Assembly: GCA_013360585.1 (NCBI GenBank)
Contig: JABWBH010000019.1
Location: 1-64,000 of the forward strand
Length of the DNA stretch: 64,000 bases
Direction of reading: 5' to 3'
Origin: Phycisphaerae bacterium
GTDB taxonomy: Bacteria; Planctomycetota; Phycisphaerae; UBA1845
The notes under the pieces were generated by a model. The model did not search any database. It had not been told where the DNA came from and saw nothing but the letters and a program-made list of their open reading frames with translations. Shown here piece after piece: positions 51,650 through 64,000 of the stretch. The position numbers and the translations under genes were made by a program. How positions within the stretch are numbered: position 1 is the first letter of the stretch; each line of letters begins with the position of its first letter.

Positions 51650-51721
51650 GCGGGTGTAGCTCAGTGGTAGAGCGTCACGTTGCCAACGTGAATGTCGTCG
51701 GTTCGAGCCCGATCACCCGCT
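51650..51721 (+). tRNA. tRNA-Gly (GCC anticodon)
   Basis: 72 bases fold into a cloverleaf: acceptor GCGGGTG with CACCCGC, D arm with AGCTCAGTGGTAGAGC, anticodon arm CACGTTGCCAACGTG with anticodon GCC, and T arm with GGTTCGAGCCC. CCA is not encoded. A tyrosine integrase gene and mobile-element genes follow, so its 3' half is the likely attachment site. Confidence 0.95.
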
Positions 51722-52079
51722 TCCTTCCCCCGCCGGGGTCCTGACGTGACAGCGGTTGCCAACCTACGACACGGGCGACCTTTACGGCCCCTTGCCGCGC
51801 GCGGCGTTCAACCCTCCAAATCAGGCCCGTTTTGCCAGCGGTTGACCCGAAGTGCCTGGCGCGGACACCTGTGAGTGCAAGGTTTAGTGCAAGGTAAACT
51901 CGAGCATGTGCATTCAAGTGTGTGCGCGCGCGCGCCCCCCCCACACCCCCCGGAGGTGCGTCAACGCACTCCGGGGCTGGGGAAAGTGTGCGCGCGCGAA
52001 GAGGCAGGAACAATCAGCAGGTTCGGAAGACTCCAGGGAGTGAAGTGGATCTAGACCGTCTAGGCGCCGAAAGCCACGC
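51722..52079. promoter_or_regulatory. Left edge of the mobile element, possible arm-type sites
   Basis: A 358-base gap between the tRNA and the 3' end of the integrase gene. It holds two direct copies of AGTGCAAGGT (51874-51883 and 51886-51895), 12 bases apart, which may be integrase arm sites, and a GTGTGCGCGCGCGCG alternating tract near 51919-51936 that could adopt Z-DNA. Confidence 0.35.
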
Positions 52080-53573
52080 CTACGCGAACGCCTTCTCGCG
52101 GCCGGTGGATGGGGAAGTGCCCGTCTCGGAGAGCGTCGGCAGCGCCGCCAGCGCCCCGGCGATGTCGAGGAGCTTCGGGTCGGTGTAAATGTTGGCGGTG
52201 AGCTCCGGCTTGGAATGTCGCATCGCGGCCTGAGCGGTACGGAGCGGTACGCCCGCGGCGCACAGATGCGTTCCGAAGGTGACACGCAGGGCGTGGACGT
52301 CCACGACGCGGTTACGCTCGTCGCGCTTGGCAATGCCCGCGACGGCCAGGTCGCGATCGAAGATCCGCGTCAGGCCCGTCGGGACGCCGAGCACGGGGGT
52401 GTCGGTGGGGAGCCGTACTGGGATCGGCTCGCCCCACGCCCGACACTCGCTCTGCAGGCGTGCCAGGCGCTCGTCCATCCACGCCTTCAGCTCGGCGGCG
52501 AGGTCCGCCCGCAAGGGGATGCTCGACCCTTGGCGGTTCTTCTCGTCCTCGGGATTGAGCACCGCGTAGGCCACGGGTCCGTCGAGTTCGAGCTGGGCGA
52601 CGGTCAGCGACGCCAATTCGCCCTTACGCAGGCCGGTGAGCGCCAGCGCCTTGTACACAAGGGCGCGTTTGCGGCCTTCGCTCTCCAGTTCGGCGATCAG
52701 CAAAGGGTTCTCTTCGAGGGCTTCACGTGCCCGGTCAACCGCGCCGTCGATCTGCTCGTACGACAGCGCTGCCCGCGTCCAGGTCGACCGGCTCTTCTTC
52801 GATGCGGCTTTGCCCCCGGATACGGTCTCGCGCCCGTATTCCGCCAGCGGGCGCAATCGGGCGACCCGCAGCAAGCGCACCAGCTCCTCCTGGGTCAGCG
52901 CGCGCCGTTGGTGCCGCCGGTCACGCTTCGCGTCGGCCCGCGGGAGATCCGCGAAGGGACTCTGCGTGAGCCGGCCGGTCCGCCGGCACCAGTTGCCGAA
53001 ACCGACCAGCGCCTCGCGGTAACTGTTCCGCGTCGCCGCGCTCAGGCCGTCGTCCTTCCGGGCGAGCAGCCACTGCTCGACCGGCCCGGCGGCCATGCGA
53101 TTGAGCCTCTTGAACCCGCATTCGTCCATGAGCCGGTCCAGCCGAACCCGCAGCATGGAGATTCGACGTGCATCGCCGCCCTTGGCTTCGAGGTGACGCA
53201 CGTAGGCCTCGAGATGGCGCTTCACGGGCACACTGGCGTGGTCGGCAACTTCGTCTTCCGCTTCGGTCATCACTCCGGCGCGGACGAGCTCTGCACGGCG
53301 TTCCAGTTGCGTCAGCACGGTTCGGGCGGCCATTTCGTCCCTGCAGCCGGTCGCGACTTCGATCACTTCACCGCCGCCATCGCGGTATCGGGCGATGTAG
53401 AACCGCGATTCGCCCCGGACGCGAAGCGGATCGCCTTCGCCGTCGATGACCTCGGCGGTACGCACCTGGCCGTTGCGCAGCCGCCAACGGGCAATGCGTT
53501 GACCGTCCCTTTCGACGATCTCCGCTCCCGGCGGCGCCGGCATGGTGTAGGCTTTTCGGTAGACTCTTCCCAT
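52080..53573 (-). CDS. Tyrosine recombinase/integrase
   Basis: 497 residues. The C-terminal catalytic domain has Arg in LTGLRKGELAS, the HxxR box HALRVTFGTHL, and the nucleophile Tyr in TANIYTDPKLLD. A core-binding domain precedes it (about residues 110-210). Located next to tRNA-Gly with its 3' end facing the tRNA, as in tRNA-targeting integrative elements. Confidence 0.9.
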   Translation of the reverse strand: MGRVYRKAYTMPAPPGAEIVERDGQRIARWRLRNGQVRTAEVIDGEGDPLRVRGESRFYIARYRDGGGEVIEVATGCRDEMAARTVLTQLERRAELVRAGVMTEAEDEVADHASVPVKRHLEAYVRHLEAKGGDARRISMLRVRLDRLMDECGFKRLNRMAAGPVEQWLLARKDDGLSAATRNSYREALVGFGNWCRRTGRLTQSPFADLPRADAKRDRRHQRRALTQEELVRLLRVARLRPLAEYGRETVSGGKAASKKSRSTWTRAALSYEQIDGAVDRAREALEENPLLIAELESEGRKRALVYKALALTGLRKGELASLTVAQLELDGPVAYAVLNPEDEKNRQGSSIPLRADLAAELKAWMDERLARLQSECRAWGEPIPVRLPTDTPVLGVPTGLTRIFDRDLAVAGIAKRDERNRVVDVHALRVTFGTHLCAAGVPLRTAQAAMRHSKPELTANIYTDPKLLDIAGALAALPTLSETGTSPSTGREKAFA

Positions 53574-53974
53574 CGTTCATGTCCTCCCGCCCGGACCCAC
53601 CCCGGGCGAGCCCAGTGAGGCTCAAGGGGGCGAGGAACTCAAGGCGAAATTGCAAGCGGTTTTCCTTCCATGCCCCCACACGCCGGACCCGCTTCAGTTG
53701 ATTCACCCTCGATTGAATGCCTTCGCGGAAAATTTCGACAGGATGGGGGGCGGTCCACCTGCGCAACCTGCGCGAACCTGCGCGATGGTTGGGATTGCCG
53801 TACGTGTGCGCGGGTGCGTGCGCAGGCGTGCGCGCGCGCGTGGGTCCCGGTGATCGCGCAGGTTCGCGCAGGCGCGCTCGTAAGTCCTTTGCCCACAATG
53901 CCTGAGCGCCTGCGCGATGTCGGGATGGATCGCGCAGGTTGTGCGCAGGTCTGCGCAGGTGGCTGGATACACCA
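53574..53974. repeat. Cluster of TGCGCGA-type repeats, putative origin
   Basis: Between integrase and helicase genes, about nine copies of a CCTGCGCGA-like unit occur in both orientations: CCTGCGCAACCTGCGCGAAC near 53760, TCGCGCAGGTTCGCGCAGG near 53854, CGCCTGCGCGATG near 53907, and TCGCGCAGGTTGTGCGCAGG near 53930. Intergenic clustering beside replication genes fits iterons of an element origin. No gene is seen here. Confidence 0.5.
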
Positions 53975-55552
53975 TCATGCCGACACGTCCTTCAAAGCGA
54001 TCCCCTGGTAGAATCTTTGATTGCCCGTGCCGAGACGGGTGACAATGCCAGTGACCGCCGCCGCGAGGTCGCGGCCGAAGGTTTGCTTCGTCGAAACCGA
54101 AACCCGACCGTCGGCGTCACACCATCGTTTCCAGGCGTGATATAAGTCATCGACCCACACTCGAAGCGCCTGCCCCGTTTCGCAACACTCCCGCACGAAA
54201 GCGCCGACAGGGCTGGAGAGATCCTCCATATCGCGTAGCGCGTCTTCAACGCTGGATGGCTGGAGGAAGTGACCACGTTTTTGAAGATGCCGCCAGCCCT
54301 CAATGGACCAGTTCAGGATCCCGGGTCGCTCGTTAAGCAATCGACGCGTGAGGGTTCTGTCTTCGCGACCATAAAAGCTCTCATTCAGCCGTAGGATCAT
54401 GAACCTGCCCGCCAAAGCTCCAGAAGCATCCGTCAGGCGGGGCAGCTCGTTGGTCAGGAAGACAAAGCGCGTGGGAAGCTTCATGGTCAGGCTGGGTAAG
54501 AACTTGCGGTCGACCGTGAGAGAGTCCTCCCCGGAGATGCACAGCAAGCGTTCGATGACAATCTGGATGTTGTCTCCGGCGAATCGCGCGTCGCTCACGA
54601 TGCCCAGCGATTTGCCGATCAACGGCTGAAGACCGAACGGGCCGGCGAGACTGGAAGTCGTGGGACCACAGATATTCCCCCGACCCACGAGGCCACTCAG
54701 CACGCGCGCAATTGTGCCCTTTCCACTGCGTTTCGGCCCGACGATGAGCAACATCTTATGCTGCGAAGTGTCCCCGGTAAGACAGTAGCCGAACCATTCT
54801 TTGAGAAGATCCAGCGCCTGAGCGTCATCCCTGAACAGTTGTCGTAAGAACGAGTTCCACTGTTTCGGATCAGGTGCCCGCGGATCGTGGTCATAATCCA
54901 ATGCGTTAACGTTAAAGAACGCCGGCGTCGGCTGGAGCTTTTTCATCGTCGGCAAATGCAGCAACGATGAACGCGTCGCGATGATTTCCGAGGGCTCGGG
55001 ACAGTTCGGCCCCGCCGTCAGCCACGACGGTGAAGGGGTGGTCGCCTCCAGGTGGACGTGGGCTTGGATCGATGCCTGTGCCGACTGCAGTGTGTTCGGA
55101 TTGGCGGGGAAATCTTTCGCCGTCCACGCTTGCTCCTCGGGGTCCCAGATCATGAGGACCGCGTTGTGGAGCCACGGGAGTAACCTGTTCCTGAGGCTGC
55201 CGTCCTCGCGTTCAACGTAGCGGTTGCCAGCCCATTCCCAAAACTGACCCGCGTAATGTCGCAGCGTCATGCCTTCGGAATGGTGATGGAACGCCTCGAC
55301 GTAGGCTTCGGCCGTGGGCAGCGTTCGCTCAACCGCGAGAATAAGCCTTCCCGTCTCGGGATCGATCGTCCCGGGCTCCGGTGCGCTCGAGAGTGGTTTC
55401 TTACATGCGCGGCCGCTTGAAGACGACTTCTTCTTGCGTCGCGCTTTGGAACTCGCCGACCCCCTTTTCGTGTTTGGTTCACGACTCGCGAGAGAAGCGG
55501 CATCATCGATGAGCTGATGAGCAATGTCGCCAGCCCGAACATGTCGTTTCAT
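53975..55552 (-). CDS. SF3 (D5-type) replicative helicase
   Basis: About 525 residues from ATG 55552, which overlaps the upstream primase stop as ATGA. The D5_N-type region (about 60-260) precedes the SF3 ATPase with Walker A LIVGPKRSGKGTIARV, an acidic B segment LGIVSDARF and motif C-like TRFVFLTNELPRL, as in P4/phage-plasmid helicase-primases. Would unwind element DNA with the adjacent primase. Confidence 0.85.
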   Translation of the reverse strand: MKRHVRAGDIAHQLIDDAASLASREPNTKRGSASSKARRKKKSSSSGRACKKPLSSAPEPGTIDPETGRLILAVERTLPTAEAYVEAFHHHSEGMTLRHYAGQFWEWAGNRYVEREDGSLRNRLLPWLHNAVLMIWDPEEQAWTAKDFPANPNTLQSAQASIQAHVHLEATTPSPSWLTAGPNCPEPSEIIATRSSLLHLPTMKKLQPTPAFFNVNALDYDHDPRAPDPKQWNSFLRQLFRDDAQALDLLKEWFGYCLTGDTSQHKMLLIVGPKRSGKGTIARVLSGLVGRGNICGPTTSSLAGPFGLQPLIGKSLGIVSDARFAGDNIQIVIERLLCISGEDSLTVDRKFLPSLTMKLPTRFVFLTNELPRLTDASGALAGRFMILRLNESFYGREDRTLTRRLLNERPGILNWSIEGWRHLQKRGHFLQPSSVEDALRDMEDLSSPVGAFVRECCETGQALRVWVDDLYHAWKRWCDADGRVSVSTKQTFGRDLAAAVTGIVTRLGTGNQRFYQGIALKDVSA

Positions 55553-56646
55553 GCCAATCTCACATTTCGAGAAACGGACTTCAACGCGGACGCAAAGGCA
55601 CTCCGCGCCTCGCGCTTCGGTAAACCACACGCCGCCGCCCCAGCGACGATCAGGCGCTCCGCCTCACGCTCATCGACCCCGCACCCCAGCAGGTTGGCAG
55701 CGGCCGCAAAGGCGGATTGATTGCGCGCGCCCTCGGGCACGCGGCCTTCGATGAACTCGCGCGTCGCAGGATGGATCCGCTCGATGGGTAGTGCGGGAGT
55801 TGGGAAGCGAGGGGGCTGTCGGCGGGGATGTGCGGAATCTCCTGTCCGGCGCGCCAACGCGGCTCGCGCCTCTGCGGTGAAGACCTCCCAGGCTTGAGGA
55901 TCGCAAGCAGGTAGGCCCTCGAGTTGGGTGGGTTTGTCCTCAAACGGATCGACGATGACGCCGCCGCCGTGCGCAGCGAAGGCGCCGGCGCACGGGAGAG
56001 TCATCGACCAGCCATGCGGTGGTCGGGAGGTGGATCGAGGCACGAGTTCGACCGAACCCGCGTCGCCGAGCCGCGCGATTGCTCCGTTCGCGCAGAGAAA
56101 GGCATGGGGAACCGCGCACTGCGCCGCGTCCAGAACCGCGATATTGAATGCCGCCGCAGCGAGACCGGCAGCGCCAATGACCGCGGTTTCAAGATCTACC
56201 GGCCCGGGTGGGAAGAAGAAGACATGCCGTCCGAGAGCACGACGCGAGCGGGCGACCAGGAGACCTGAGGAAAGGCCGGCAGCATCGGCGCGCTCTGCAA
56301 TGCAACGGGCTGCATGCGCCGGATCGGCCAGCCCCGTCGCGCCGTGATCAGCGGCGTCCAGATCGATCGCCAGCCATCGGACTAGGCCATCGGTTCCCGG
56401 GCAGTAGGCGGCCAGCACCACCTGATCCACGCGTTCCAGCCGCGGCGGGTATCCCTCCGCGATGAAGGTGAGCGTCGCCGGACGGCCGCACAGATGCGCA
56501 TCGACGAGCGCCATCACCGCGTGCGGATCAGGCGGTAGCACGATTCGGCAGGGTTTTTCGCTGCGGCGAATCGCAGTAGCGAAATGCGATCCGTTCAGGA
56601 GGACCAGCAGCAATTCCATGAGAGACGGATTCGGGAGGGGCGTCAT
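55549..56646 (-). CDS. AEP/PrimPol-like primase
   Basis: About 365 residues. The start at 56646 overlaps the upstream HTH gene as ATGA. The archaeo-eukaryotic primase signature is suggested by WLAIDLDAADHG (DxD metal pair) and the later SGLLVARSRRALGRHVFFF, a G-x-H-type block; a helical C-terminal module (NQSAFAAAANLLGCGVDERE) resembles PriCT. Functions with the SF3 helicase. Assignment is by motif only. Confidence 0.65.
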   Translation of the reverse strand: MTPLPNPSLMELLLVLLNGSHFATAIRRSEKPCRIVLPPDPHAVMALVDAHLCGRPATLTFIAEGYPPRLERVDQVVLAAYCPGTDGLVRWLAIDLDAADHGATGLADPAHAARCIAERADAAGLSSGLLVARSRRALGRHVFFFPPGPVDLETAVIGAAGLAAAAFNIAVLDAAQCAVPHAFLCANGAIARLGDAGSVELVPRSTSRPPHGWSMTLPCAGAFAAHGGGVIVDPFEDKPTQLEGLPACDPQAWEVFTAEARAALARRTGDSAHPRRQPPRFPTPALPIERIHPATREFIEGRVPEGARNQSAFAAAANLLGCGVDEREAERLIVAGAAACGLPKREARSAFASALKSVSRNVRLA

Positions 56647-56879
56647 CGGGTCCCCCGGCACGATTCGCGGACCTGCGGGCACCCCGCGGCAATCCACTCG
56701 AGTAAAGATGACCGTTTCCAGCGGACCAAGGTGCCGAGCCGTACGGGAGGGGGCATCCGACCTGCGTCGGAGAGGCGCCGGATGTGGCGCTCACTGCAAT
56801 CGCCGAGCAACGCAGCTACAGCGCGAACGTCTAGAAGTTCGGGCGCAACAAGCGGCTGAGTGTTGGAGGATAAGTTCAT
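56643..56879 (-). CDS. AlpA/excisionase-like HTH protein
   Basis: 78 residues with the MerR/AlpA-type HTH (LLDVRAVAALLGDCSERHIR then RLSDAGRMPPPVRLGTLVRW). AAGGAG lies upstream of the ATG. It may control excision or activate the replication genes it overlaps. Confidence 0.7.
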   Translation of the reverse strand: MNLSSNTQPLVAPELLDVRAVAALLGDCSERHIRRLSDAGRMPPPVRLGTLVRWKRSSLLEWIAAGCPQVRESCRGTR

Positions 56880-56982
56880 CCCTGCAGTGCTCCTTTCGAG
56901 TTCTCGACGATGGTTCGCACCTCGCGCGCGTCACATCGGGCGTGCTGTCCGATTCCAGTTGCGGAAATCTCACCCCGGTCAG

Positions 56983-57183
56983 TCATTTGCGCACCTCGAC
57001 TTCCGGAGCGGGTGTGCTCTGCTCGCGCAGCCAGATCGAGATGACTTCAGGGTCAAACCGGATTTCGCCGTCGGGAAGCCGCACGCACGGGATTAGCCCG
57101 CGGCGCGCTAAGCGCGCGGACCGGCCACGGGGGAATCGAAGGCGGCTGTCGAGTTCAGTCGGTTTCAGCAGCTGGTCGCTCAC
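56983..57183 (-). CDS. Second small HTH protein
   Basis: 66 residues from GTG 57183 (TAAGG seven bases upstream; the frame opens at TTG 57189). Short HTH-like domain: LLKPTELDSRLRFPRGRSAR and LARRGLIPCVRLPDGEIRFD, then VISIWLREQ. Similar role to the neighbouring AlpA-like protein. Confidence 0.55.
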   Translation of the reverse strand: MSDQLLKPTELDSRLRFPRGRSARLARRGLIPCVRLPDGEIRFDPEVISIWLREQSTPAPEVEVRK

Positions 57184-57278
57184 AACCAAACCTTACCACG
57201 CGAAAACGTGCGCCGACGCGGCTTGTGGCGGAGTGGGTATGAGTGGGGAGCAGATAGTATGAGATAGTTCGAGAGGGA

Positions 57279-58361
57279 TTACTTCTCCGGGAGCTTCGGA
57301 AACTGAGCGCGACAGAAGATGAACGTCTGTCGGTTGAGAGTCCTGAATCGAACGTGACCCGAGTTCATCAGGCTCGTGAGTTTCTTCACGGTCATATCGC
57401 CGCCAATGGCGTCCGCAGCTTGTTTCTTGCTCAGGGGGGCCGACGGCGTGACCGGTTCGCTGGCGTTGCCTACGCCTCCCGCTTTCGCCGTCGGCTCGTT
57501 ATCTGCTGGTTTTCCCGCGTGATCGGTGAGGATGTCAATCGCCGCTGACGAAGCGCTGAACAGGTCGTCCAGGTCGCTCGTGAAGGAACGGGGAAGCTGT
57601 TCAAGCCAGCGGTCGGGGAACTTCAGTTGTGGCCCAAGCACCGCGCTCGACTTCAACCTCCGCAGCTCCCCCAAGTTGTAGGGAAAGTCCTGTCCGTTGT
57701 GAATGCAATTTCGATTCGCTCTCAGGTTGGGCCAGCGCTGCGCCCATGCCAGATCGAAGAGCAGGTACACCCATCGTAGTGCGGGCTCGCCCGTGCGAAG
57801 AGTCTCGGTCGGGACCGGTGCAAAGTCTGCAAACGAATTATCCGGGACGACAGCACCCGCCCTTGCGGCAAACGCCTTAAACACGTCCACGCCCTTCCGA
57901 TCGCCAAAGACACACACCGTGCGCCCGATGGGTGGGACTACGGCGAAGGGATCCCCAGCGCTATTCGCAATGGGTTTACCGTGAATATCGAGAAAGGGTT
58001 TGGTTCCAAGGGGTGCGAGTGTCGGAATCGCTGGAATGCCCACTTCGCGGTAAACGCCGCACATGGTCCAGGCGGGAGTGCGGAGGAAGGTCGGAGCCGT
58101 GCCGTTGATAGCGATACACTCGCCTGCCTCGGGTTCATCGTGACCGAGCCAACAGCGCAAGCGCCCGTGATGGACCAGGGCGTCTTCGAACCGGTCGCGC
58201 AGGGAACGCAGCAGCTCGATGGGTTTCTCGCTAGCCGCCGATTCGGCTGAGGGGGTTCCCGTCCCTTGTTGTGCCTCGCCAGCCTTCTCATACTGGCCAT
58301 GGCGCGCATGCAGCTTGCTGCGCTCTGCGAGTCGTGAAGACCGACGTGAATCGTCCGCCAT
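57279..58361 (-). CDS. Unrecognised protein abutting the CRISPR array
   Basis: 360 residues; I do not recognise the family. The N-terminus is Ser/Ala/Arg-rich; a central domain contains VCVFGDRKGVDVFKAFAARA; the C-terminus has an HTH-like LSKKQAADAIGGDMTVKKLT. The ATG is 19 bases from the distal CRISPR repeat, with AAGGATG as ribosome site, so its promoter must be inside or beyond the array. It could be an element gene transcribed as array read-through. Confidence 0.55.
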   Translation of the reverse strand: MADDSRRSSRLAERSKLHARHGQYEKAGEAQQGTGTPSAESAASEKPIELLRSLRDRFEDALVHHGRLRCWLGHDEPEAGECIAINGTAPTFLRTPAWTMCGVYREVGIPAIPTLAPLGTKPFLDIHGKPIANSAGDPFAVVPPIGRTVCVFGDRKGVDVFKAFAARAGAVVPDNSFADFAPVPTETLRTGEPALRWVYLLFDLAWAQRWPNLRANRNCIHNGQDFPYNLGELRRLKSSAVLGPQLKFPDRWLEQLPRSFTSDLDDLFSASSAAIDILTDHAGKPADNEPTAKAGGVGNASEPVTPSAPLSKKQAADAIGGDMTVKKLTSLMNSGHVRFRTLNRQTFIFCRAQFPKLPEK

Positions 58362-58380
58362 CGTGCAACATCCTTATTGG

Positions 58381-60663
58381 GGTTCACCCCCACGTGCGTG
58401 GGGACATCATCGCTCTCATCTCCGCCCACGTCATCGTCGTCGGTTCACCCCCACGTGCGTGGGGACATCGCAATCAGGCTCCGCCTCAAGGACGGTAGAC
58501 CGGTTCACCCCCACGTGCGTGGGGACATCAGCATGGTTTCGGCTGAAACGGCAAACCTCGTCGGTTCACCCCCACGTGCGTGGGGACATCGACGTTTGTT
58601 CCCTCCGGACGGCCGGGCCGATCGGTTCACCCCCACGTGCGTGGGGACATCGGCGTCTGGCGGAGTGTCCGCGAGCGCCGCGTCGGTTCACCCCCACGTG
58701 CGTGGGGACATCGTACCGCAGAATCCTTGGCGGGGACGCCAACTGGGTTCACCCCCACGTGCGTGGGGACATCCGCTCGTGCTCTGGGAGCGGCTTGCCC
58801 GTGACCGGTTCACCCCCACGTGCGTGGGGACATCGTTGTTAGCTGCCGCGACACAGCCCGACCAGTCGGTTCACCCCCACGTGCGTGGGGACATCGCCGG
58901 CGATCTGGCCGAGTTCGACGACTCCAGCGGTTCACCCCCACGTGCGTGGGGACATCGATAGAGGACGACGGGCCTGAAGGCGAGCCGATCGGTTCACCCC
59001 CACGTGCGTGGGGACATCGTGATCGGCATCGCCATCATCTCGTCCCACGTCGGTTCACCCCCACGTGCGTGGGGACATCGAATCTCCGAGATGGAACCGA
59101 CCCGGTAGTGCGGTTCACCCCCACGTGCGTGGGGACATCTTCACGGTTTCTAACTACCGAGAAACTAAAAGCGGTTCACCCCCACGTGCGTGGGGACATC
59201 CCCGCAAGGGGGGGTTTGGGGGGGTTCTCTATCGGTTCACCCCCACGTGCGTGGGGACATCGCGACGAGCGTATACATCCGCTGCCGGCTGATCGGTTCA
59301 CCCCCACGTGCGTGGGGACATCTACACCAGCACAGCCAGCTGTTGCGGCTCGATCGGTTCACCCCCACGTGCGTGGGGACATCTTGCACTGGTCGCCATA
59401 ATACACCTGCCTTAACGGTTCACCCCCACGTGCGTGGGGACATCATCCGGCGAGGTCTGACGAGGAACGCGCGCACCGGTTCACCCCCACGTGCGTGGGG
59501 ACATCGTCGAGCAGATGTCGGGGGGCGAGTACGCGACCGGTTCACCCCCACGTGCGTGGGGACATCGTGACTCGCCGGGAATCGCCGGGCGCTCACACCG
59601 GTTCACCCCCACGTGCGTGGGGACATCTCATCGTCGTATCCTCCTGTGTATAGAGTCCCCGGTTCACCCCCACGTGCGTGGGGACATCTCTCCACCGGCA
59701 CGACCGGATTCCCCGTCTACCGGTTCACCCCCACGTGCGTGGGGACATCGCCCGAAAGAGATACCGGATACCTTTCGCTGACGGTTCACCCCCACGTGCG
59801 TGGGGACATCGCCGACGCCGACCGTAATGAAGCACCGCTCCGCGGTTCACCCCCACGTGCGTGGGGACATCCATTATACATATCGGTTGCGTCGATGCAA
59901 CCCCGGTTCACCCCCACGTGCGTGGGGACATCGCCGATCCCGCCCGGTGCGTTGCCGGGCGGGACGGTTCACCCCCACGTGCGTGGGGACATCTCACGAA
60001 TCCGACGATCGTGGACAACGTGTTTCGGTTCACCCCCACGTGCGTGGGGACATCTCACGGAGAACTCGGTGACGGTGACGGTCGTGCGGTTCACCCCCAC
60101 GTGCGTGGGGACATCCGAGGGGGACTACTTCGGGCGGGCCGACGAGGAGGTTCACCCCCACGTGCGTGGGGACATCATCTACGGCGGCATGATGGACCCC
60201 TCGGAAAGCGGTTCACCCCCACGTGCGTGGGGACATCGAAACGTTTCCGCGAACGACTTGTCTGTGTTCGGTTCACCCCCACGTGCGTGGGGACATCTGT
60301 GGTGAGGTATTCCGGTTTCATTGTTGTCCCGGTTCACCCCCACGTGCGTGGGGACATCGTCGAGAACGTGAGGCGAGCGGACGGCGTGAACGGTTCACCC
60401 CCACGTGCGTGGGGACATCCATCCGGAACGTTCACGCTCCAGACGGGTTTTCGGTTCACCCCCACGTGCGTGGGGACATCACGTCGTCGGGGATGGTCGC
60501 GGCGGCCCACAGCGGTTCACCCCCACGTGCGTGGGGACATCGGAGGGGTTGGCTTAACGATCGGAGGGGTTGGCGGTTCACCCCCACGTGCGTGGGGACA
60601 TCGAATATGCCGCCTTCACATACTTACGGACCAGCGGTTCACCCCCACGTGCGTGGGGACATC
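58381..60663 (-). CRISPR. Type I-E CRISPR array, 38 repeats, 37 spacers
   Basis: A 28-base unit starts GGTTCACCCC and ends TGGGGACATC on the plus strand. Read on the minus strand it begins GATGTCCCCAC, forms a stem, and ends GTGAACCG, the type I-E form with an 8-base 5' handle, so pre-crRNA is transcribed leftward. All 38 copies look identical; position 29 is usually C (G on the minus strand). Spacers are 32-34 bases; unit starts are 61 apart except three at 60 and one at 62. The leader-proximal end is at 60663, 8 bases from the cas2 stop. Confidence 0.98.
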
Positions 60664-60671
60664 ACTGAGCC

Positions 60672-60953
60672 TTAGCTCACAGATGGCGATCTTATCAGAA
60701 CCAAGCCCTCGAAATCAACCGGAGTTCGATCGGTTTTCCCATGTGTTCGGATGGCGAATCCCTGCTCAGTCGGGTTCTTGAAGATCATGGTGGCCCCTCC
60801 GCCGCGAAGCAGGCTGGTCGTCTTGTCCCAGACCTTGTCCCGAACGAGTGCGGAAAGGCGGCCTACGAATACGCCCGTCCGCGGCTCGATCATCCAGCGG
60901 CTCAGCAGCCCCCGCAGCGAAGCCGGGACGCGCTCAACAATCAGAACCACCAT
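60672..60953 (-). CDS. cas2: CRISPR adaptation protein Cas2 (type I-E)
   Basis: 93 residues with the Cas2e form: MVVLIVERVPASLRGLLSRW, then RTGVFVGRLSALVRDKVW. Forms the Cas1-Cas2 integrase core for spacer acquisition. It overlaps the cas1 3' end by 20 bases. Its stop is 8 bases before the first repeat, so the leader must overlap its coding sequence. Confidence 0.93.
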   Translation of the reverse strand: MVVLIVERVPASLRGLLSRWMIEPRTGVFVGRLSALVRDKVWDKTTSLLRGGGATMIFKNPTEQGFAIRTHGKTDRTPVDFEGLVLIRSPSVS

Positions 60954-61893
60954 AGTTCATGCCTCCTTCCGCCGTCTGGTCTGAACCGCCGCTCTCCGGA
61001 TCCCACAGCCGGGTCGGTCGCGCCGGCTCCTCGTCCCAGTCCTCAATCGCCGCGGTCGTGGGAACCTCGACGCCCGGCACGTCGAGCACGGCGGCGATCT
61101 CGGGAATGATGTGTTCCAGAAGATCGGTATCCCGAAACCGATCCCGACACGCCAACCGCACCGATCTCTCCAGATCGCTCAGGTAGGAACCGGCTATCTC
61201 GAAGGCCAGCGGGATTACGACATCGACCTTGTACAAGTCGGCGATGTCGTAAACGAAGGAAAGCTGCTTGCCGGTGTGGATGAACCCCAGCGCCGGCGAA
61301 TACCCGGCGGAGAGAATCGCAGCGTGAACCACCCCGTAAAGGCACGCATTGGCTGTGGAAAGCGCTCGATTGACCGGACTGGCCGACGCCCATTCGCCGC
61401 GCTTATACAACCGTCCCGTCCATTCGACGTTGTACTTGAGGCTGGCCGCGGCGTAGGTCTCGCGGACGCGGATGCCCTCGCGCCCGCGGAGCTGCTTGAG
61501 CGAAAGCCCCTCGGGCAACGTCTCGTCAAATCGGCGCTCGTACATGCGTCGGACCACGGCGAGCCGGGCGATGGGCGACGCCCACAGTGCGGCCTGCTTC
61601 AGGAGGTTGGCCGAGCTGCGCGTGCCGCCGGTGCTATGGGCGTACATCCGCACGCCCTCCTGGCCGACCCATGCGACAAGGCAGTTGTTGTCGGCCAGCG
61701 TCCGCGCGGCGGCGTGCGTTATCGTGGTGCCGGGACCGAGCATGAGAACGGCGAGTGCCGCGACGGGGACGTGGGTTGACCCTTCCTTGTCGTGAACGGC
61801 GATGGCCTGCTCGTGCTGGTCGATGCGCGCGTGCTCGACGTAGAGGAAGCTGAGACGGTCGTCGAAGCGCGCGAGTTGATGCAGATCGTCCAT
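60934..61893 (-). CDS. cas1: CRISPR adaptation integrase Cas1 (type I-E)
   Basis: 319 residues from ATG 61893 (GTGGGAG upstream). Catalytic set matches Cas1e: Glu139 in LRGREGIRVR, His206 in GFIHTGKQLSF, and Asp216/Asp219 in VYDIADLYK. Inserts new spacers with Cas2. An upstream frame to 62193 has no Cas1 similarity and overlaps cas6e. About 103 bases separate it from cas6e. Confidence 0.95.
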   Translation of the reverse strand: MDDLHQLARFDDRLSFLYVEHARIDQHEQAIAVHDKEGSTHVPVAALAVLMLGPGTTITHAAARTLADNNCLVAWVGQEGVRMYAHSTGGTRSSANLLKQAALWASPIARLAVVRRMYERRFDETLPEGLSLKQLRGREGIRVRETYAAASLKYNVEWTGRLYKRGEWASASPVNRALSTANACLYGVVHAAILSAGYSPALGFIHTGKQLSFVYDIADLYKVDVVIPLAFEIAGSYLSDLERSVRLACRDRFRDTDLLEHIIPEIAAVLDVPGVEVPTTAAIEDWDEEPARPTRLWDPESGGSDQTAEGGMNYGGSDC

Positions 61894-61996
61894 GCGGGAG
61901 GCTCCCACGGAAAGCGGCGAGTATTCACTTGTCAAAGATCGGACGGGGCGGGTGCCAACGTGAAGGCATCGCCACGATTCGGGCCTCATGCACGGC

Positions 61997-62824
61997 TTAG
62001 CGGACCGGGGCGACGGAGAGCAAGCCGAAGCCGAAGGCCTTGGCGGGGCCGATGCCGCGAATGATAATTTCGCGGAAGCGGTCGGCATCGACCACTTCGA
62101 GGATGCCGTCATAGCGCACCGCGCGAAGCTGCTGACCCTTTCCCGTTTCATGCGTCTTGTTGACGTAGACATAGCCGGGTTCGAGAGACTCAATCGAAGT
62201 CAGCTTGAACCCGCCCAATGGGGCGCGTCGACCCAGCCAAGCGTTCCACTGGTCGGGTGGCACTGGAACGCGCTTGCCGAATGACTCACGGTCCACGGGT
62301 TGACCGTTCGCATCCAATGAGGCTTCTCGGAGGCGCTTGGTCGGATTGGAGAGCAAGCGGAAGCGCAAGCGCTGACCACGCTCGAATCGCCGCTCGTCGG
62401 CCTTCGTTTCCGGAAGGGCAGCCAAAAGGTGGCGCGCGTTGTGAAATGCGTAGTCCCAATCAGGCTCCAAGGCCGACTGAACCAGAATGACAACGCGGCC
62501 ATTTGGCGTCACGTCAACACGGTGCAGGAAGTTGTGCGCCTTGTCGCGTGGGACGTGTATCGGTCGGTCAGCGGCTTCCGGCGCAATACCACGGGAAGGC
62601 GATACCTGCTCGGCAACAACCGCGCAGCGCTCAGGGCGCGGATCGAGGAAGCCGCACGGTTCATAGGGCATTAAGAACTCCGGGTCTTGCTCACGCTGGG
62701 ACGGAGTCGGGAAAGCCATGCAGAGGCGCTGATGGACGTGATAGCGATTGCGCAGCCAAAGGCGCCCAGGGCGCGGCCTGTCGGGGTTATCGCCGACGTT
62801 GATGAGTAGACAGGAAAGGTACAC
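61997..62824 (-). CDS. cas6e: CRISPR RNA-processing endonuclease Cas6e
   Basis: 275 residues (CasE/Cse3 family). The N-terminal catalytic pair Y28-x2-H31 in RNRYHVHQRLCMAFP corresponds to the Tyr/His of characterised Cas6e; the C-terminal G-rich GIGPAKAFGFGLLSV is the usual ending. Cuts each repeat at the base of its stem. Begins 3 bases after the stop of the HNH gene. Confidence 0.92.
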   Translation of the reverse strand: MYLSCLLINVGDNPDRPRPGRLWLRNRYHVHQRLCMAFPTPSQREQDPEFLMPYEPCGFLDPRPERCAVVAEQVSPSRGIAPEAADRPIHVPRDKAHNFLHRVDVTPNGRVVILVQSALEPDWDYAFHNARHLLAALPETKADERRFERGQRLRFRLLSNPTKRLREASLDANGQPVDRESFGKRVPVPPDQWNAWLGRRAPLGGFKLTSIESLEPGYVYVNKTHETGKGQQLRAVRYDGILEVVDADRFREIIIRGIGPAKAFGFGLLSVAPVR

Positions 62825-62827
62825 GGC

Positions 62828-63415
62828 TTAGACCTCCTCGGGGCTTAAGCGTCGCCTTCGAGTTTCCAGCGACCGAAAACGGATGATCTCGTCACGCTTG
62901 GTGATGATCCGGTCGCGCCAGTGCGGATCATCGGGATTGATGCGGTCCAACCCCATACCCAGGCCGTACTCGATCATGGTGACGGCGTCGTGGCACAAAC
63001 GACAGAGCGAGCGCAACTCTTCGAGACGTTCCTCTCCCCCGGCGTGGCGATAGGTGACATGCTGAACGGTCGTACCCGGCGATTTGCAGAAGACGCACAG
63101 GTCATGGTCGTGGTCGAGCCGTTGAAGTCGGCGCTTCTTGTATTCGCTGTTGCCATAGTCGGCTCGTGGGCGAGGTGGTCGAGGAGTCGCGCGTTGCGCA
63201 GGTTCTTTCGCAATGCCGACTTCGCCGTTTGCGCCTACGCGCAGTTCCTGGCGGATGACGAATCGGGCGCTATGTGCCGGCGGCTCGAACGTCAGTGGAA
63301 CATCGTACCAGACGAGCGCATCGTCGGGGGCTTCGGGCTGCACTGGCGTAGGGATCCAGTCGAGCAGGCAATCCAAGGTTTCTGGAGCCGGGTCCCCGAA
63401 CGTAACCCTCTTCAT
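62828..63415 (-). CDS. HNH nuclease with Cas5e-like N-terminal remnant
   Basis: 195 residues from ATG 63415 (GAGAGAGG upstream, spacing short). The first 60 residues (DDALVWYDVPLTFEPPAHSA, then RFVIRQELRV) resemble the last strands of type I-E Cas5. A Pro/Arg linker leads to an HNH domain: C107-x2-C110, His119 in VQHVTY, C138-x2-C141 and H142, with LRSLCRLCHDAV. It sits where cas5 sits in type I-E operons. HNH-fused Cas5 has been described in Cas3-less I-E systems. The N-terminal Cas5 body is missing. The frame is open upstream into RHS sequence. Confidence 0.6.
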   Translation of the reverse strand: MKRVTFGDPAPETLDCLLDWIPTPVQPEAPDDALVWYDVPLTFEPPAHSARFVIRQELRVGANGEVGIAKEPAQRATPRPPRPRADYGNSEYKKRRLQRLDHDHDLCVFCKSPGTTVQHVTYRHAGGEERLEELRSLCRLCHDAVTMIEYGLGMGLDRINPDDPHWRDRIITKRDEIIRFRSLETRRRRLSPEEV

Positions 63416-63523
63416 AACCTCTCTCTTTCGACGGCGGCGTGTGGTTTTGGCGGAAACTGTTAACTGGAAATCACCGAAGAGAGTCGAAGCCGCGAAAAAC
63501 ACCTGCGAGGCGATCGGATGACG

Positions 63524-64000
63524 GAATCCGAAAGGCTCTGTCAATCGATTGACGCCGAGGCCCATCGCGGCGACGAACGTCCCCTGGTCCGTCGCGTCCA
63601 CGTCCCCATCCCGATCGAAGTCCCCCGGCGAGTAGTCCCAGAGGCGGACCTTCCCATAGCCGTCGTAGACATCGGCCTCGGCCAGCGCCCCGTTCTTCTC
63701 CACCAGCCCCGTCACCGTGAACAGCTCCTGCAACAGATAGTAGAACGTGTCGGCCTCATCGGCCTCGCCCTCGATCAGCGCCACGCGCTCGTCCACATAC
63801 TGCGTGCCGTTGATGAACCGCCGTGCCGGCGTCCCGTCACTATGATAATCCGCGATCTCGGCCTGGCCGTCATGGTAGAACCGCAGGTCCGCGGTCTGGC
63901 TGTCGCTCGTGCCGTCATACTGCGTCCACGCGGTGATCTTGCGGCCGAGGGCGTCGTAGGCGAACGTCGCGACCGTGGTGTTCGACCCGGAGTTCGGGTC
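63524..64000 (-). pseudogene. 3' part of an RHS-repeat gene, cut at the CRISPR junction
   Basis: Continuous minus-strand frame entering from beyond base 64000: TFAYDALGRKITAWTQYDGT, RFINGTQYVDERVALIE and DGYGKVRLWDYSPGDFDRDG are planctomycete-type RHS/YD sequence with a dockerin-like DFDRDGDVDATDQ. RHS similarity stops after EPFGF at about 63524; the usual RHS-core ending is absent and the frame continues without stop into the HNH gene. Partial at the window edge. Confidence 0.6.

Follow-up and report, generated by a model that had tools for sequence, protein, structure and literature searches.

Results

A type I-E CRISPR array ends 19 nt from the start of orf360

The window that we analyzed comprises 64,000 bases (bases 1–64000 of the 71,559-base contig C38). 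On its minus strand it carries, from high to low coordinates, an RHS/YD-HNH open reading frame (ORF), cas6e, cas1e, cas2e, a CRISPR array, a gene of 360 codons referred to here as orf360, two HTH genes, a putative primase, a P4-family helicase, and an integrase; beyond the integrase lies a tRNA-Gly(GCC) on the plus strand. The product of orf360 (57279–58361, minus strand; taken from the ORF list) combines an N-terminal domain without a known fold (residues ~48–285) with a C-terminal winged-helix-like module (~305–358).

Between the orf360 ATG and the core of the distal repeat we read 19 nt of minus-strand sequence (58362–58380), or 18 nt if the altered 29th base of the repeat is counted; gap lengths and coordinates were worked out by hand. 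The gap holds AAGGA (58371–58375), which lies 9 nt before the ATG and makes a good ribosome site; a promoter or a terminator would not fit in it. The initial annotation of this DNA had pointed to the 19-base spacing, to the shared direction of array and gene (both on the minus strand), and to a gap that fits a ribosome site but not a promoter, and each of these observations holds. In the orf360 reading frame, the first ATG, GTG, or TTG after codon 1 is codon 68; an internal start would therefore cut into the conserved domain (from about residue 48 on). The close spacing is unusual for the family: in five relatives sharing the N-terminal domain, 130–579 nt lie upstream to the nearest non-overlapping frame of at least 100 amino acids, with opposite-strand frames that overlap the gene start (L019, L021, and L023) set aside.

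The array (type I-E; 58381–60663, minus strand) consists of 38 repeats and 37 spacers of 32–34 nt, repeats being counted as exact copies of a 28-nt core and spacer lengths being measured on that core. In the minus-strand sense the repeat unit is GATGTCCCCACGCACGTGGGGGTGAACCG, with cas2 at the leader end, a reading that we take to be the usual I-E orientation. The last base of the repeat nearest orf360 is changed, as is common at the trailer end of arrays. Only 8 nt (60664–60671) separate the cas2 stop from the first repeat, which leaves two options for the leader, overlap with cas2 or absence; two other I-E loci, L101 and L103, likewise leave little space there. Spacer 33, counted from the distal end, shares 29 identical nt with a spacer (L086:437–465) from another array in this genome, one with a type II Cas1, so two CRISPR types sampled the same target. 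Spacer 36, counted likewise, has GCCAACCCCTCC at each of its two ends. Spacer 26 has a 19-nt stretch in common with related integrase genes but matches at just 22–23 of 33 positions over its full length, and we did not call it as targeting them.

The cas genes, all on the minus strand, are cas2e (60672–60953; TIGR01873, PF09707), cas1e (60934–61893; TIGR03638, with the start codon inferred by hand and the family match spanning 61084–61881), and cas6e (61997–62824; TIGR01907, called Cas6e by PADLOC). They are preceded by the C-terminal remnant of a Cas5-HNH gene (62828–63385, minus strand; HNH match), which continues in frame behind an RHS/YD-repeat ORF reaching 64723 on the contig; its end was worked out by hand. 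This remnant of 185 amino acids is 66% identical to the intact Cas5-HNH of L103. Upstream of the CRISPR locus, two transposase-like ORFs, recognized by eye from their translations, are flanked by RHS-type ORFs (L002 5438–8188). L101 and L103, which are intact I-E loci of family genomes, agree with the portion of the published description of Type I-E Cas5-HNH systems available to us (PMC10910872) in having cse1, cas7e, cas5-HNH, cas6e, cas1, cas2, and an array. Set against that same portion, the window retains the Cas5-HNH tail, cas6e, cas1, cas2, and the array, whereas the N-terminal part of Cas5 and the other effector genes are gone. No match to TIGR01869 (cas7e) was found in the genome, which is 97% complete, and the locus therefore falls short of the complete effector set of such a system. 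Judged by its sequence, the CRISPR locus is decayed, with only the tail of its Cas5-HNH gene surviving.

The CRISPR locus lies within a tRNA-integrated element

Following orf360 on the minus strand are hth2, a small HTH-like gene with a GTG start (56983–57183; weak match to phrog_66); hth1, an AlpA/excisionase-like HTH gene (56643–56879; PF12728, phrog_66); a putative primase/polymerase (55549–56697; weak matches to PF22548, E 0.3, and phrog_695, E 0.013); a P4-family primase/helicase C-terminal protein (53975–55630; TIGR01613, E 1.4e-48; phrog_6088); and a tyrosine integrase (52080–53573; PF00589, phrog_1). The integration target is the tRNA-Gly(GCC) (51650–51721, plus strand; ARAGORN).

A 47-nt attL core (51676–51722, plus strand) recurs exactly as an attR on C61, another contig of this genome; there, the tRNA sequence from position 27 onward is duplicated beside lysS. 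Because the assembly leaves C38 and C61 unlinked, this element is split over two contigs and is not seen in one piece. The congener G002 has the same arrangement, with att repeats of 51 identical nt that lie 34,874 bases apart; the repeats start at tRNA position 27 in both genomes, and the attR sequences, including the element side, are 80% alike. A second congener, G001, has the empty site. One of its contigs carries the left flank (93% identical) up to the tRNA, where the contig ends; another opens with that same tRNA and continues into a short ORF and then lysS, whose counterpart in the window's own genome is the one beside attR on C61. An integrase beside a tRNA, direct att repeats, and an empty site in a relative together mark a tRNA-integrated element, here on two contigs, and the att repeats of the two elements with the empty site of the second congener place the CRISPR locus within it as cargo. 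A stretch within the distal spacer (58424–58446) resembles the tRNA (19/23, E 0.19) and had been considered as attR; discovery of the 47-nt attR on C61 led us to drop it.

Near attR, both elements carry an HNH-TerS-TerL packaging set (L047 13332–16093; L041 9907–12751), whose products are 78%, 88%, and 85% identical, respectively, between the two genomes; a ParB-methylase protein also lies near attR in both. In a PHROGs scan of nine ORFs from the G002 element only, packaging (terminase) was the sole structural class clearly matched. As far as the available part of the Islander account of tRNA-integrated genomic islands goes (PMC4383910), those islands and the element have in common a tyrosine integrase beside a tRNA and a displaced tRNA fragment at the far end. 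The element differs from what is given there in its att core, which begins within the anticodon arm (tRNA position 27), and in its host group, Planctomycetota.

orf360 keeps its position while the neighboring cargo changes

G002, of the same genus, is the closest relative. Its element carries the tRNA-Gly, an integrase (75% identical), an HTH gene, a different helicase, the putative primase (62%), hth2 (72%), orf360 (52%–55%), and divergent type I restriction genes, the last lying upstream of orf360. Within this sister-element slot (L019 10722–19475), the type I restriction genes (R, S, and M-like) are accompanied by other genes where the window has CRISPR. The position of orf360 is thus kept while the cargo changes.

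Searches with orf360 found matches in 8 of 100 related genomes at E 0.001 or better, its own genome included, and a family profile matched 14 of the 114 genomes of the order, six of them (again including its own) over the N-terminal domain. Across the phylum, 2 of 392 genomes matched, namely its own and that of L027; the latter match spans 34 residues with one stop and was dropped as chance. Scans of genome-contig and viral-contig collections returned no relatives of orf360. Each of the six neighborhoods of the N-terminal family, the window's included, contains a tRNA gene, which is tRNA-Gly(GCC) in five; a related integrase and hth1 are each present in 5/6. Three further genomes (G006, G014, and G036) each have tRNA-Gly(GCC), a related integrase, and hth1, and the relative in G034 (L025) has neither a related integrase nor hth1 beside it. 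Of 51 family genomes, 14 have a related integrase, and a tRNA is present in 7 of the 11 integrase stretches fetched (L090–L100). Named public relatives of the integrase come from metagenome-assembled genomes of Phycisphaerae and other Planctomycetota, plus one record named Hydrogenedentota. Where the profile matched the C-terminal part only, an hth1-like gene lies just downstream on the same strand in 7/8 genomes.

P4 carries an integrase, a P4-family primase/helicase, and an AlpA-like regulator. The window element has all three, the combination by which P4-like and PICI elements are recognized. In P4-like satellites, according to the portion of PMC9122126 at hand, conserved genes flank a slot whose defence genes vary, a defence hotspot, and the element shares this varying slot along with the three genes. 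It differs from the satellites as covered in that portion in being larger (34.9 kb in G002), in having its own terminase set, and in holding a CRISPR locus or type I restriction-modification genes in the slot.

The orf360 family shows no recurrent association with type I-E CRISPR

The 19-nt spacing, the common direction, and the lack of a promoter-like site nearby on the minus strand would all suit a CRISPR-linked accessory protein that is transcribed together with the array and takes part in type I-E immunity. The distribution of the family speaks against this. With cas1e counted where the profile passes its cut-off, the 51 family genomes include six carriers of the N-terminal family and four cas1e genomes, overlapping in one (Fisher p 0.40). 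Five orf360 relatives sit in elements with no I-E locus or array near them within the fetched stretches. Among three other I-E loci, the distal array end is visible in L101 alone (L103 begins in the array, and L102 has no visible array); there, a convergent kinase-like ORF, identified by eye, lies ~220 nt away and is not an orf360 relative. PADLOC, too, gives orf360 no match. Since orf360 is an element core gene and the array is element cargo, closeness to the array is no mark of a CRISPR accessory gene. A role in CRISPR immunity is thus very improbable; the initial annotation had left the choice between an accessory protein and an element gene, and it is the second that is borne out, co-occurrence with I-E arrays giving no sign of association.

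The C-terminal module of orf360 resembles excisionase and MerR-type winged helices

No family in Pfam, NCBIfam, PHROGs, or PADLOC matched orf360, and PDB sequence searches gave nothing credible. Searching PDB and BFVD with a model of the full-length protein (pLDDT 60) yielded nothing useful, and the model's N-terminal fold is not confident; we draw no conclusion from this lack of structural matches. The N-terminal domain has invariant residues across six sequences, and relatives lack a clear equivalent of the first 47 residues.

The last ~55 residues were modeled as two helices and a wing (model pLDDT 80). Foldseek placed Pukovnik Xis first (probability 0.84, TMq 0.51), the matches being weak (best E 0.59, Z under 5 throughout). 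VIA gave Z scores of 4.6 for BldC (rmsd 2.8, 48 aligned), 4.2 for Pukovnik Xis (2.2, 47), and 3.7 for both MtaN (2.3, 47) and RdfS (2.1, 46). The module is thus closest to Xis, BldC, and MtaN among excisionase and MerR-type proteins; unlike them, it is joined to a domain without a known fold, and it matches no sequence family. In L022, L024, and L026 it is found on other proteins, next to hth genes, and the G002 homologue has a different C-terminal end, which together indicate that the orf360 C terminus is modular. Because of that different end, we restrict the proposed DNA binding to carriers of the module rather than to the whole family. From the modeled winged helix, we infer that orf360 is most likely a DNA-binding regulator or a replication or excision factor.

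Transcription of orf360 plausibly depends on the array

DNA similarity between the window and G002 fades upstream of ~codon 46 of orf360, which suggests that the CRISPR junction took the place of the original 5′ region. The usual 5′ region is missing only in the window, not in relatives, and G002 has a weak promoter-like site upstream of its orf360. A scan for consensus promoters, a type-specific search, found none on the minus strand from 52000 to 64000; on the plus strand it gave one match, with 2.0 expected from shuffles.

Given the 19-nt spacing, the orf360 mRNA has to originate within the array or upstream of it, and with no promoter-like site nearby on the minus strand it probably begins in or beyond the array. 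A putative dependence on read-through from the array is plausible. Cas6e of type I-E systems cuts 8 nt from the repeat end, and a cut in the distal repeat would leave a 26-nt leader on the orf360 mRNA. A stronger form of such coupling would have the element's core block transcriptionally slaved to its CRISPR cargo: cas6e, cas1, cas2, the array, and orf360, perhaps with the HTH and replication genes, would form one unit in which Cas6e cleavage makes the 5′ end of the orf360 mRNA, with the ribosome site in the 26-nt leader. We regard this arrangement as rather unlikely.

Transcription from the leader end would be irrelevant if orf360 had its own promoter within the last spacers or repeats. An element gene is presumably needed in every host, and cryptic promoters in CRISPR arrays are described for Sulfolobales in the accessible part of PMC10883916. 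The scan of 52000–64000 found no sigma-70-like site on the minus strand, which weighs against such a promoter, although promoters of this group may look different; we hold it to be possible, if somewhat doubtful. Another reading is that orf360 is a relic here, its promoter and original start removed by the cargo junction and its expression lost. Both the divergence upstream of ~codon 46 and the decay of the CRISPR locus would fit, but the 360-codon frame is intact and preceded by a good ribosome site, and the protein keeps its 52%–55% identity to the G002 homologue; we find this reading quite unlikely.

Discussion

The explanation that we favor, and think likely, is that orf360 is a core gene of a phage-like element integrated at tRNA-Gly(GCC), with the I-E locus as its cargo, a C-terminal winged helix that likely binds element DNA, and a 5′ region that was lost at the cargo junction. 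The element, its att sites, the empty site, the cargo slot, and the conservation of the gene are read directly from the DNA, and the protein's function and transcription are put forward as predictions. On this explanation, orf360 would head the replication/regulation block of a Planctomycetota element whose named relatives are mostly Phycisphaerae, one that would comprise the integrase, the AlpA-like HTH genes, the putative primase, and the P4-family helicase, with the HNH-TerS-TerL set at its far end. The I-E locus would occupy a variable slot just upstream of orf360, filled in the sister element by type I restriction genes. Through its excisionase/MerR-like winged helix, the protein may bind element DNA and regulate or assist replication or excision. 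The joining of the cargo would have cost orf360 its usual 5′ region, so that the gene now begins 19 nt from the array.

The junction is real and unusual, and its cause is ordinary: defence cargo beside an element core gene. Among the records listed in our literature searches, none described this element or a gene that relies on an array in this manner, which is no proof of absence.

According to these findings, a phage-like element integrated in a Planctomycetota genome harbors a CRISPR locus, and the slot for defence cargo that holds it resembles that of P4-like satellites. The findings also show that close spacing to an array can, by itself, mislead guilt-by-association searches for CRISPR accessory genes. 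Should orf360 rely on transcription of the array, it would offer a natural example of an array serving as a promoter region, with Cas6e making the mRNA end, and if the coupled unit were true, CRISPR expression would set the regulation of the element.
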